DNA of 64,000 nucleotides from Xenococcus sp. MO_188.B8. GTDB taxonomy: Bacteria > Cyanobacteriota > Cyanobacteriia > Cyanobacteriales > Xenococcaceae. The stretch is taken from positions 1-64,000 of the forward strand of contig JASJDR010000014.1 of assembly GCA_030065615.1 (NCBI GenBank). Reading direction: 5' to 3'. Positions 9,013 to 13,215 of this stretch are shown one piece after another. The position numbers and the translations under genes were made by a program. Below the pieces are notes generated by a model. That model had not been told where the DNA came from. It worked only from the letters and a program-made list of their open reading frames with translations, and ran no database searches. The number at the start of each line of letters is the position of its first letter. Positions within the stretch are counted from its first letter, which is position 1.

Positions 9013-9429
9013 TTAATCCATCAAAAATGAATAAACCAAGCCTAATAATTCTAATTCGACTGCGGGAAAGGTACGAGCTTCAACAATAGGAATAAACTTG
9101 CCTCCGAGATGTTTTAGTTGTTCACGAGGAGGATCGATCGTCGTGAAACGAGCCAAATATATATCGAGCGTTAAATCTTTACTTTTGGCGATCGCTATAA
9201 ATTGTTTTTCAATCTCTAGGATATTACTAGATAGTTCTAATCGTTTCTTGATAGTGGGAATTAAGGTTTCTGGATAGTCAATAACTCGATCTTCTTCAAT
9301 ACTGTTATCAACTATTTTTGACTCAGGAGGTAAGCCATCACAATGACAAATCGAACCATTTAGGGCGAAAAATAGAATACGCGCACTGGCAGCTTGTTTG
9401 TGATATATAATTAAGCGTTTGTTGTCCAC
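9013..9429 (-). CDS. uncharacterised protein, last gene of the NafY-ferredoxin run
   Basis: This 138-residue protein starts MDNKRLIIYHKQAASARILFF and ends in VELELLGLVYSFLMD. It has an early HCD pair (ICHCDGLPPES) and a middle helical segment (RLELSSNILEIEKQFIAIAKS). No family is recognised. It is downstream of the DUF364 gene on the same strand, but 116 bp of GC-rich repeat lies between them, so operon membership is uncertain. Confidence 0.6.
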   Translation of the reverse strand: MDNKRLIIYHKQAASARILFFALNGSICHCDGLPPESKIVDNSIEEDRVIDYPETLIPTIKKRLELSSNILEIEKQFIAIAKSKDLTLDIYLARFTTIDPPREQLKHLGGKFIPIVEARTFPAVELELLGLVYSFLMD

Positions 9430-9487
9430 AGTCTTTACCTCTTTCTGTGACTACTAGGGCAGTGGATTTTACAATTTAATTTGATAT

Positions 9488-9540
9488 GCGATCTCGAAGA
9501 GATCCGCTACGCGGGGCGCGCTGATCCTGCTTTCGCAGAC
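9488..9540. repeat. palindromic repeat, same family as the one inside the IS4 transposase
   Basis: The first 21 bases (9488-9508) are identical, on the opposite strand, to 47903-47923 inside the transposase gene at 46823. The word is itself nearly self-complementary (GATCTCGAAGAGATC) and is followed by CGCGGGGCGCGC and a CTGCTTTCGCAGA hairpin. Confidence 0.75.
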
Positions 9541-9545
9541 CACAA

Positions 9546-10301
9546 TTACCTAGACAATTCTAAAACCCGATACTGAATACCCGTTTCAAAAATCCTCACC
9601 CCACCACCTTCGACAACAGTTTGTCTTAAAGCCGAGGGATTAGTTACCGCAACTCCTGCTAAGTAATCGATTCCCATATCAGCTAAATCGGGCAGCCAAG
9701 GAACAGTAGGATCCATTAAAACTAACTTGGCATTTTGTGCTAATTCTACCAAACGGGGAAAAGTTTTATTAGGAATAGAAGTCGCCGTGAGAAACACCCA
9801 ATCAGCTTCAGGTAAAATGTATTCGGCAGCAGGATCGGGCAAATCTTGGGACTTTGGTTTACGTTCAATGACCGTCATCGACACTTCTTGTTCGTAGCGA
9901 GATAAACCAGGATAACGTCCAATAACCGCTACTTTCTGCCCACAAATCAACGGAAGAAAATGCTCAAAAACAGCCAAATTAGAAAAGCCTGGAAGAGATA
10001 TTGGCTCTGCTTTGGCAGGTAAATCAGAAGTCGTATTAATCGCCGCATTAATCACTGCCATACCTACTGTGGCTTGATAATTATCCCAAGAACGAATCCA
10101 AATAGATAATTCACTCAATGGGCGATCAACTAAAGTTCCTGACCAAGGTAACGTACGGTTAGGAATAGCTGGACTCATACATAAGCCAATCCCTTCAGCA
10201 TTACATAGCGTCCAAGTTAAGCCAATAATAATTTCTCTGACTTTAGTTTCTGTTTGACTAGAATCTAATAAAAGATTGTATATTTCTCTGGGGCTAATCA
10301 T
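9546..10301 (-). CDS. DUF4213/DUF364 domain protein, putative metal-chelate handling
   Basis: The 251-residue protein shows the DUF4213 N-terminal part (ISPREIYNLLLDS, IGLTWTLC) and a DUF364 C-terminal domain with Rossmann-like elements (VAVIGRYPGL, DWVFLTATSIPNKTFPRLVE, VLMDPTVPWLPDL). The family is often annotated as putative heavy-metal chelation and occurs near metal-uptake and nitrogenase-related genes. It starts 7 bp after the ferredoxin stop, so the two are almost surely co-transcribed. A role in iron or molybdenum handling is inferred from neighbours only. Confidence 0.7.
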   Translation of the reverse strand: MISPREIYNLLLDSSQTETKVREIIIGLTWTLCNAEGIGLCMSPAIPNRTLPWSGTLVDRPLSELSIWIRSWDNYQATVGMAVINAAINTTSDLPAKAEPISLPGFSNLAVFEHFLPLICGQKVAVIGRYPGLSRYEQEVSMTVIERKPKSQDLPDPAAEYILPEADWVFLTATSIPNKTFPRLVELAQNAKLVLMDPTVPWLPDLADMGIDYLAGVAVTNPSALRQTVVEGGGVRIFETGIQYRVLELSR

Positions 10302-10308
10302 CTTTTAT

Positions 10309-10605
10309 TTATAGATATTCATATAGCTCGACCTCAATAGTGCAGTCAGAAGTAGGTTTAGCCACGCAAGTTAGAATATATCCTTCGGCAATTTGTCTAT
10401 CGCTTAAAAACATTTGTTCTGATTGATCTACTGTGCCAGAGACAATCTTTCCTTGACAGGTAGCACAAGCACCAACAACGCACTCAAAGGGAACTTTTAT
10501 CCCCACTTCGGCAGCTTCACCAAGAATATACTCATCATTGGGGACAGCAATAGTTTGTTGAAAATTTTTACTGTAGTTAATTAAAGTTACATTATAAGTA
10601 GTCAT
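10309..10605 (-). CDS. plant-type [2Fe-2S] ferredoxin, FdxH-like
   Basis: The 98-residue protein carries the plant-type cluster ligands C42-x4-C47-x2-C50 and C80. The segment [22 protein letters not shown] matches heterocyst-type FdxH, which donates electrons to nitrogenase reductase, better than photosynthetic PetF. The usual serines around the first cysteine are replaced ([10 protein letters not shown]), which may shift the redox potential. Placement among NafY-like and metal-handling genes supports a specialised rather than photosynthetic role. It is upstream of and nearly touching the DUF364 gene. Confidence 0.8.
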
Positions 10606-10651
10606 GGTTGATTCCTAGTAAATAAGCTATATCTATATCTTTGAATCTTTA

Positions 10652-11906: not shown

Positions 11907-11932
11907 AATAGTATCCTTTGTTATTTTTTCAT

Positions 11933-11984
11933 TTGTCCTTTGTCCTTAGCAACCAATGACCAACGACCAATGACCAGTTACTAA
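11933..11984. repeat. heptamer repeats (minus-oriented)
   Basis: Copies of TTTGTCCTTNG and CAATGAC/CAACGAC units (complements of GTCATTG and GTCGTTG) fill the gap between two genes of the NafY-ferredoxin run. Confidence 0.7.
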
Positions 11985-11985
11985 T

Positions 11986-12330
11986 TCAATCTTCATCTAA
12001 AGCGGGAAATGATTCTTCAATTTCCCACAACATACTTTTGTGTGCGATAAACCAACTGCGAGTTGCTGGAGTTAATTCATCCCAAACAAGATCGAGATCG
12101 ACATGGGGAGATTCGTATTGATATTTTTCACCTAGCGATCGCAAATTAACCGCGACTTCTTGAGGAATACCAAAATTTAACCAATTCACCTCAACAATTT
12201 TTCCTGATACTCCGCCACTGGGATCGTAGATCAGTTGAGCAACACGAACCAAATCAGCAAAATGGGTTGGTCTGAGTCCTGTTATCTGCTGGATTTCCCG
12301 AATCCGTTCTTTATTTTGTTTAATCTTCAT
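11986..12330 (-). CDS. uncharacterised 114-residue protein of the NafY-ferredoxin run
   Basis: This small acidic protein begins with a helical segment (KIKQNKERIREIQQITGL). Conserved-looking stretches follow: THFADLVRVAQLIYDPSGGV, VEVNWLNFGIPQEVAVNL and LVWDELTPATRSWFI. The final residues are strongly acidic. It has no signal peptide. It is transcribed after the NafY-like gene, with heptamer repeats between them. The family is not recognised. Confidence 0.55.
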   Translation of the reverse strand: MKIKQNKERIREIQQITGLRPTHFADLVRVAQLIYDPSGGVSGKIVEVNWLNFGIPQEVAVNLRSLGEKYQYESPHVDLDLVWDELTPATRSWFIAHKSMLWEIEESFPALDED

Positions 12331-12333
12331 AAT

Positions 12334-12374
12334 TTACTTTTTGTCCTTAGTAACCGATGACTAACGACTAATGA
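12334..12374. repeat. heptamer repeats (minus-oriented)
   Basis: The segment contains TTTGTCCTTAGTAACCGATGACTAACGACTAATGAC-like units, the same family as at 11933 and 15146. Confidence 0.65.
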
Positions 12375-12483
12375 CTCTTGCTGAAACCAAAAAATCAATA
12401 AAGTAGACTGAAAGCCTGACTAGAATTATTTTTCGGTCTTCTTCTTACTTCTGCCCTCTGCCTTCCCCATCAGGGGCTAATGA

Positions 12484-13215
12484 CTAACTAACAGCCGTAT
12501 AATTTTTCACCCGTTTGTTTTGCTCAACTCCTAAAATTTTGGCTAACCAAGGTGGAGGAGAGGTTATGATCGCTTTTTGTAAGTCTGCTAGTATTTCTCT
12601 TGCCGCACCTCCTTGTTCTACTTTCATGGGGTAAATATAAGCCTGGATGACTTTGGCAGCAGCCGGACCACCGATGGAAACAATATAGAGAACGGGACAA
12701 TCTTTAATTAAATTCACACGATATCTATTTTTATCTTCACTAAGATCTGCTTCCAATGCCGAGCGAACATCGATTAATCTAATTTCATCTGCTGATAGCT
12801 GATAAATTAAGTAGCGATGACAAGAACCAAAATGTCCGTCTAATTGTTCTCCCGTATTGGAAGCGACGGCAATTCTAATGGAGTTGGGCATATCTCCCTC
12901 TTGATATGGCTCGATAGGTAATTCCTGTTTGCAATAACCTTTTTCGCCCCAGAGGATGCGTACTGCTTCTTTAAAGGCTGCTATATCGCTATTATCAGCA
13001 TCTTCGCCTTCCCATTCACTATCAACTTCGTAAATATTGCCAAAGGATCTTTTTAGTTGAGTGACTGTGATATTACTAAGGGATTCTTCTGTAATCTCAT
13101 AGTCGAGATGGGTTTGCAAAGCCCCGATTAAATCCTTGACAGATATATCGGGTAATACCTTAGCTGCTAAGGCAATTCTCAGAGCGACTTCATTAGAAAT
13201 GGGTTGTTGACTCAT
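12484..13215 (-). CDS. NafY/NifX-family dinitrogenase cofactor-binding protein
   Basis: Start is taken at ATG 13215 (MSQQPISNEVALRIAL) because GGAGAAAATC precedes it; an in-frame ATG four codons upstream overlaps that ribosome-binding site. The first 55 residues match the N-terminal helical domain of NafY-type proteins. The C-terminal half is the NifX/NifB-like domain, with IRIAVASN, the hallmark DGHFGSCHRYLIY, and CPVLYIVSIGGPAAAKV. The family binds FeMo-cofactor or precursor clusters. No nif structural gene lies in this window, so its physical partner must be elsewhere. Confidence 0.8.
   Translation of the reverse strand: MSQQPISNEVALRIALAAKVLPDISVKDLIGALQTHLDYEITEESLSNITVTQLKRSFGNIYEVDSEWEGEDADNSDIAAFKEAVRILWGEKGYCKQELPIEPYQEGDMPNSIRIAVASNTGEQLDGHFGSCHRYLIYQLSADEIRLIDVRSALEADLSEDKNRYRVNLIKDCPVLYIVSIGGPAAAKVIQAYIYPMKVEQGGAAREILADLQKAIITSPPPWLAKILGVEQNKRVKNYTAVS

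Follow-up and report, generated by a model that had tools for sequence, protein, structure and literature searches.

The 64,000 nucleotides analysed here (the window), positions 1 to 64,000 of contig JASJDR010000014.1 of Xenococcus sp. MO_188.B8, carry a run of seven consecutive minus-strand open reading frames (ORFs) that probably represents a satellite accessory locus for nitrogen fixation (nif) in a nitrogenase-bearing cyanobacterium. The core of the run is linked to nitrogenase because its genes are nearly confined to genomes containing nifD and because, elsewhere, they are located inside nif clusters. According to the ORF list the run spans positions 9013 to 13227; an earlier reading made from the DNA letters alone (the sequence-only reading) had correctly recognized a run of seven genes on one strand but ended it at 13215, which is an in-frame second ATG. 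In order of transcription, the seven genes are:

12484 to 13227, minus strand: NafY (247 residues), with DIMCO_N and Nitro_FeMo-Co domains (Pfam); by homology a putative chaperone of the iron-molybdenum cofactor (FeMo-cofactor) and apo-nitrogenase
11986 to 12330, minus strand: 114-residue protein of an unnamed family, predicted all-helical; by its distribution, adjoins NafY or lies within nif clusters elsewhere
11265 to 11906, minus strand: 213-residue protein of an unnamed family; by distribution and neighbourhoods, a frequent neighbour of NafY
10652 to 11203, minus strand: TPR protein (183 residues), between the 213-residue and ferredoxin genes; TPR_19 (Pfam), present in few relatives
10309 to 10605, minus strand: [2Fe-2S] plant-type ferredoxin (98 residues) of a separate clade, from Fer2 (Pfam), alignment and tree
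9546 to 10301, minus strand: DUF4213+DUF364 protein (251 residues), with a putative role in metal (molybdenum) handling, from Pfam, a match to 3l5o and mod neighbours
9013 to 9429, minus strand: 138-residue protein of no family; neighbour of NafY or of the 213-residue gene elsewhere

The domain assignments previously offered for the NafY, DUF364 and TPR proteins are borne out by Pfam, as is the description of the remaining three (114, 213 and 138 residues) as lacking a family: none has a Pfam family or a credible NCBIfam match, the sole match being a chance-level one to the 138-residue protein (E 0.045).

Each gene was searched for in the same draw of 242 Cyanobacteriia genomes, the resulting counts including the present genome, and a genome was scored nifD-positive at E<=1e-100. 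By this measure 83 of the 242 are positive, 76 over the family cut-off and the rest with incomplete or NifE-like matches. NafY, as detected by DIMCO_N, occurs in 25 genomes, 24 of them nifD-positive (one-sided Fisher P 1e-11, this and the following P values overstating significance because the relatedness of the genomes is not corrected for); the 114-residue protein in 31 genomes, 30 positive (P 4e-15); and the 213-residue protein in 18, of which 17 are positive (P 5e-8; 16 of the 18 are over the cut-off and one nifD-positive holder, G003, has the gene in fragments). The DUF364 protein was found in eight genomes, seven of them positive (P 0.003), and the TPR protein in 11, all positive (P 5e-6), with the ten others at only 21-26% identity. 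The sole nifD-negative exception, common to all run genes but that for the TPR protein, is the draft genome G214 (610 contigs), in which neither nifD nor nifB was found. Its NafY contig encodes NifV (540.6 bits, cut-off 462.9) and NifT (83.9 bits, cut-off 41), and between positions 3567 and 8101 of the locus (L107) holds nifT, a nifZ-like gene (a label without NCBIfam support), nifV, DpsA and cysE. Because nifV and nifT are present on that contig, G214 was rejected as a nif-less holder and is read as an incomplete assembly, probably a nif genome whose cluster has been broken by assembly gaps. Save for the conflicting case of Pleurocapsales LEGE 10410, considered below, NafY and the 114- and 213-residue proteins occur only with nif genes. 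The sequence-only reading had held that equal occurrence in nif-less genomes would argue against a nitrogenase link; no such pattern was seen, and its suggestion of a role in nitrogenase maturation, perhaps as a stand-alone accessory operon, is supported both by this distribution and by the location of the genes elsewhere.

With regard to location, the core genes occur both inside and outside nif clusters. Specifically, no more than 20 kb of a shared contig separates NafY from nifD or nifE in 10 of its 25 genomes, and in an eleventh (G009) NafY adjoins hesA-hesB-fdxH; the same distance criterion holds for the 114-residue gene in nine of 31 genomes and for the 213-residue gene in three of 18. 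On a plasmid of Pseudanabaena ABRG5-3, whose nif cluster is annotated, a relative of the 114-residue gene comes after a cupin gene and an ArsC-like gene of that cluster. In nif clusters elsewhere, the 213-residue gene has fdxH to one side and mod genes to the other. Among 52 GTDB loci of the 213-residue gene (several on contigs also in the 242-genome draw, with flanks of at most 10 kb on each side and several contigs shorter than that), 22 contain NafY (21 of them with both genes on one strand), and eight have nif genes in their flanks, typically in the order hesA-hesB-fdxH-NafY-213, in some followed by mod genes. The order NafY-114-213 recurs in seven loci near the window in likeness (L178-L182, L184 and L206), with varying genes downstream; no nifHDKEN match was present in the flanks examined, and a Mo-nitro_C-type match is located towards the end of L206. 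Nearest to the whole run is that of Xenococcus PCC 7305, in which six of the seven genes, NafY-114-213-ferredoxin-DUF364-138, are found at 82-93% identity with the TPR gene missing at this place; MO_188.B29 carries NafY-114-213-TPR-ferredoxin at 77-91%, the TPR copy being 77% identical.

The nitrogenase genes themselves lie elsewhere in the same genome. A tblastn search with this genome's own nif proteins returned no nif gene in the window outside the run, so that the earlier description of the run as lacking nitrogenase genes is true of these 64 kb; it does not extend to the genome (8.26 Mb, 354 contigs), in which contig C189 carries matches to NifH, NifD, NifK, NifE and NifN as well as NifB over its cut-off. 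The absence of nif genes is thus a matter of the contig only. Mostly from sequence resemblance and gene order, we take the surrounding C189 ORFs to be fdxN, nifS, nifU, nifZ, nifX, nifW, hesA, hesB, fdxH, feoB and mod, and most of these names are backed by the likeness in gene order between C189 and the annotated Pseudanabaena nif cluster. Between the nifN- and nifX-type ORFs lies a gene for a DUF269 protein (L017:16122-16604), and a second ORF, at L017:17142, is presumably the usual NifX-associated protein.

The first gene of the run is assigned to NafY. Both domains exceed their Pfam cut-offs (DIMCO_N, 96.7 bits against 36.7; Nitro_FeMo-Co, 60.2 against 26.3), and structure matches include 1p90 (E 3.5e-48), the NifX structure 9ian, and 2kic, the first and last of which we take to be NafY domains. 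The protein carries the sequence DGHFGSC, and HFGSC is present in 24 of 24 sequences examined from the 25 genomes (leaving out the G189 copy, for which no matching ORF was found); the protein thus has the conserved histidine that in homologues binds FeMo-cofactor and the cysteine four residues on, His134 and Cys138 in Leptolyngbya boryana. Identification as NifX was considered and rejected, as the protein scores 105.4 bits against the NCBIfam nifX equivalog cut-off of 112 and has an extra N-terminal domain; what, by its resemblance, is presumably a separate NifX-type ORF is present in the nif cluster of the genome. Experimental characterization of nafY in L. boryana (LBDG_23680), a gene located outside the nif cluster, has revealed functional overlap with NifX: diazotrophic growth is lost in a nifX nafY double mutant (PMC6428710).

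For the two proteins encoded next, the models show no clear relative among solved structures. The model of the 114-residue protein (predicted local distance difference test, pLDDT, 84.7), predicted to be all-helical, had no PDB match at E<=0.001 in a structure search; for that of the 213-residue protein (pLDDT 86.6) Foldseek returned nothing at E<=0.001 and VIA-align 2 gave a Z of at most 2.5, and the sequence profile of this protein matched no PDB sequence at E<=1. Missing matches of this kind do not show that either fold is new. Family alignments comprised 17 sequences for the 213-residue protein (excluding an incomplete copy from G135 and a fragment from G003) and 14 of those found for the 114-residue protein; neither NCBIfam nor Pfam gave a match to the 17, and Pfam gave none to the 14. 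The search for the 114-residue family covered Cyanobacteriia genomes and, as DNA, plasmids. In the GTDB scan the 213-residue family was found in cyanobacteria, the closest named relative being that of Xenococcus sp. PCC 7305 (82%), and in one contig titled Candidatus Gracilibacteria (L191, 63%), which is most likely of cyanobacterial origin and misbinned. Adjacency and distribution together suggest that both proteins may be partners of NafY.

The DUF364 protein is recognized through PF13938 (70.7 bits, cut-off 23.5) and PF04016 (128.6 bits, cut-off 23) and matches 3l5o (E 9e-28). In one genome (G065) its gene is flanked by the modA and modBC of the nif cluster, and in another (G231) it adjoins the modA of the nif cluster there; a DUF364 gene is also carried by a Methylococcus plasmid, about 7 kb from nifHDK. 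Genome context has previously linked DUF364 to transport genes for molybdate, vanadium, tungstate and iron (PMC2954201). A literature search found no paper on DUF364 together with nafY, nitrogen fixation or nitrogenase; the unnamed families of the run may nonetheless have been treated in papers outside those consulted. Weak relatives of the TPR gene lie within 16 kb of a nifD or NifE-type match in five of ten genomes. The 138-residue gene is found beside NafY in two genomes (G109 and G214) and beside the 213-residue gene in L214, and its copy in the PCC 7305 run is 82% identical.

The ferredoxin had been described as FdxH-like with an altered cluster environment. The ten-residue motif on which the latter half of this description was based is present, the loop reading CVVGACATC in place of the PetF-type CRAGACSTC with the CX4CX2C cysteines kept, whereas the likeness to FdxH is not borne out: in the alignment four FdxH proteins share 46-48% with it, as against 60-63% for five ferredoxins of photosynthetic type, and the best solved match is 1rfk (E 9e-35), with the heterocyst ferredoxin 1frd weaker (E 7e-24). 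In a tree of 27 rows the protein falls within a clade of nine (support 100/100) that stands apart from both PetF-type and FdxH sequences and bears the signature PFEC(V/A)(V/M)G(A/S)C. Identification as FdxH was rejected on the clade, the identities and the 1frd match, and as PetF on the loop and the clade; by sequence, the lineage is nearer to photosynthetic ferredoxin than to FdxH. Members of the clade are encoded near the 213-residue gene in L185, L198 and L052. A literature search found no paper on an S47A ferredoxin.

Upstream regions provide a hint, and only a hint, of NtcA-type regulation. The pattern GTAN8TAC occurs upstream of NafY in nine of 41 loci (P 5e-5) and of the ferredoxin clade in four of nine (P 2e-4), as against eight of 275 controls, P values that are uncorrected over eight groups and rest on a biased control, many control genes being operon-internal; compared with shuffles, P is 4e-4 for NafY and 0.005 for the ferredoxin, the latter using a shuffle rate from a wider set. 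Nothing was seen for the other genes (114-residue 1/22, 213-residue 4/57, TPR 0/2, DUF364 0/9, 138-residue 1/6, and a flanking 84-residue gene 1/10), none of the 13 NafY and ferredoxin-clade sites has the -10 spacing, the window contains about as many copies of the pattern as chance would give (11, with 9 expected), and alignment of eight NafY upstream regions gave no common block.

Taken together, these data allow a conditional account of how a satellite nif accessory locus might work. By analogy with its homologues, which are known to bind FeMo-cofactor through the conserved histidine, to associate with apo-NifDK and to help deliver or hold the cofactor, NafY would do the same here. Their conserved adjacency and distribution suggest that the 114- and 213-residue proteins act as helpers of NafY at the same step; the DUF364 protein, from its place among the mod genes of nif clusters, may handle molybdenum or one of its small ligands; and the ferredoxin could feed electrons to maturation or to nitrogenase. 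Support for a link to nitrogenase is good in the case of NafY and the 114- and 213-residue proteins and fair in that of the DUF364 protein, while the TPR protein, the ferredoxin and the 138-residue protein are tied to nitrogenase by association only.

Several observations weigh against this reading. No nif gene lies within the examined flanks of 44 of the 52 GTDB loci of the 213-residue gene; no nif or close mod gene was present in the flanks examined around DUF364 in five of seven other genomes (L168, L170 and L173-L175); and two of the eight other clade ferredoxins (L167 and L169) have no run gene in the flanks covered. The ferredoxin clade (counted at >=67% identity, looser ferredoxin matches occurring in 216 of 242 genomes) and the 138-residue protein are each found in four of the 242 genomes, three of them nifD-positive (P 0.12 in both cases), and are too rare to weigh. 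The complete seven-gene order was not found elsewhere, PCC 7305 being without the TPR gene, and some 2.7 kb of the MO_188.B29 contig past the ferredoxin gene hold no other run match. The window NafY has no NtcA-like site upstream, and the L. boryana nafY single mutant grows normally (PMC6428710). Finally, Pleurocapsales LEGE 10410 holds NafY-114-213, which would count against the nitrogenase link were that genome nif-less; in one study, one sentence has its nif cluster absent while another compares its nif cluster, and that study also mentions nif genes in Xenococcus PCC 7305 and in Hyella patelloides, which reportedly does not grow on nitrogen-free medium (PMC8472315).

A narrower interpretation, which we regard as possible though distinctly less probable than a satellite locus of seven genes, is that only NafY and the 114- and 213-residue proteins form a functional unit, the TPR, ferredoxin, DUF364 and 138-residue genes being later neighbours possibly unrelated to nif. 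In its favour, NafY and the 114- and 213-residue genes are kept together in seven other loci while the following genes vary, statistical support is missing for the ferredoxin clade and the 138-residue protein, and DUF364 genes are found away from nif and mod in five of seven other genomes. Set against this, ferredoxin, DUF364 and 138-residue genes are kept at high identity beside NafY-114-213 in PCC 7305, two genomes have DUF364 in among the mod genes of a nif cluster, and the ferredoxin and 138-residue genes recur near the 213-residue gene and NafY, respectively. An operon for electron supply, centred on a ferredoxin that donates to nitrogenase under some condition and with NafY and the others as riders, appears unlikely: the separate clade with its changed cluster loop and the NtcA-like sites upstream of four of its nine members would suit it, yet most of the 22 loci with NafY and the 213-residue gene are without a clade ferredoxin, the clade is restricted to so few genomes, and ferredoxin ORFs of FdxH type and of 4Fe-4S type are already present in the nif cluster of this genome.

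A locus independent of nif, serving another metallocluster or general metal stress, is highly improbable. Although DUF364 genes adjoin transport genes for several metals (PMC2954201) and expression of nafY in L. boryana is nearly constitutive (PMC6428710), the near confinement of the genes to nif-bearing genomes and their placement inside nif clusters speak against it, and the other-metallocluster option of the sequence-only reading loses support on the same grounds. More speculative, and doubtful on present data, is a reading in which NafY, the 114- and 213-residue proteins, the ferredoxin and DUF364 would form a cyanobacterial module for delivery of molybdenum and FeMo-cofactor that replaces, in some lineages and under oxygenic conditions, the missing molybdenum donor NifQ, with the 213-residue protein as a new nitrogenase assembly factor whose fold is unassigned. 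NifQ is reported to be missing in cyanobacteria (PMC6428710); the occurrence of DUF364 in eight and of the 213-residue protein in 18 of 242 genomes, against nifD in 83, limits such a reading.

The accessory region of the window is probably wider than seven genes, as the cupin-like and 109-residue genes in its flank are members of nif clusters elsewhere. The relevant plus-strand genes are:

3935 to 4264, plus strand: 109-residue protein, likely of the same accessory region; within nif clusters elsewhere (L046, L109, L113) and after NafY-114-213 in L180 and L181
4774 to 5397, plus strand: cupin-like 207-residue protein; nif-cluster member elsewhere (L046, L109, L114, L115, L172)
6963 to 7217, plus strand: 84-residue protein; near the 213-residue gene and/or the ferredoxin gene in L042, L044, L052, L185 and L198

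Specifically, in two metagenome-assembled genomes (L180 and L181) NafY-114-213 is followed by genes for 109-residue, 102-residue, cupin and SelO proteins, which in the window occupy 3935-6886; the cupin-like protein also has a counterpart in the 'cupin' gene of the annotated Pseudanabaena ABRG5-3 nif cluster. Upstream of the 84-residue gene, at 6897-6910, lies an NtcA-like site, GTAACAAATGGTAC, with TAAAAT 23 nt on, an arrangement that we take to be the classical shape of an NtcA-activated promoter. On the other side of the run, a hairpin of 25 perfectly complementary bp with a 9-nt loop and no T-run (13325-13383) separates NafY from the preceding gene (13434-14837), presumably pntB; no second copy was found in the window at up to three mismatches to one arm. 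Elsewhere in the genome, a fused modBC ORF on C189 (L018:5392-7359) contains a 71-residue stretch 96% identical to translated window positions 51074-51286, which has the appearance of an in-frame insertion of a repeated element, and a NifH-like gene is paired with an Oxidored_nitro gene at two separate places (C266:7227-9489 and C314:65747-68170), probably two copies of chlLN.

Mutants of L. boryana indicate that oxygen-producing cells seem more dependent on accessory proteins for nitrogenase assembly than heterotrophs (PMC6428710). Moving nif into plants requires a full list of parts, and the two unnamed families and the separate ferredoxin type are concrete candidates, directly testable by deletion in a tractable cyanobacterium.

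Comparison with known systems places the locus among several relatives. From Azotobacter vinelandii, the NafY/NifX/NifY family shares the two-domain DIMCO_N and Nitro_FeMo-Co build and 1p90 is the best solved match, while the neighbouring genes differ from those of the run. The ferredoxin shares with PetF and FdxH the plant-type [2Fe-2S] build and CX4CX2C, its clade differing from PetF-type proteins in a glutamate before the first cysteine, V/A-V/M for RA, and A/G for the serine after the second cysteine. Both DUF364 domains and a proposed association with metal-transport genes are features of the protein described earlier (PF04016, 3l5o; PMC2954201), to which the present data add a location next to mod genes in the nif clusters of two genomes, G065 and G231. 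Closest in layout is L. boryana, likewise a non-heterocystous cyanobacterium with a nif cluster, a nafY gene outside it and the conserved histidine and cysteine four residues apart; in the text consulted nafY is described alone (PMC6428710), whereas here NafY leads a run of seven genes. The layout as such is therefore not new, nafY outside the nif cluster having been published for L. boryana; what is added here are two unnamed families that track nif and a ferredoxin lineage.

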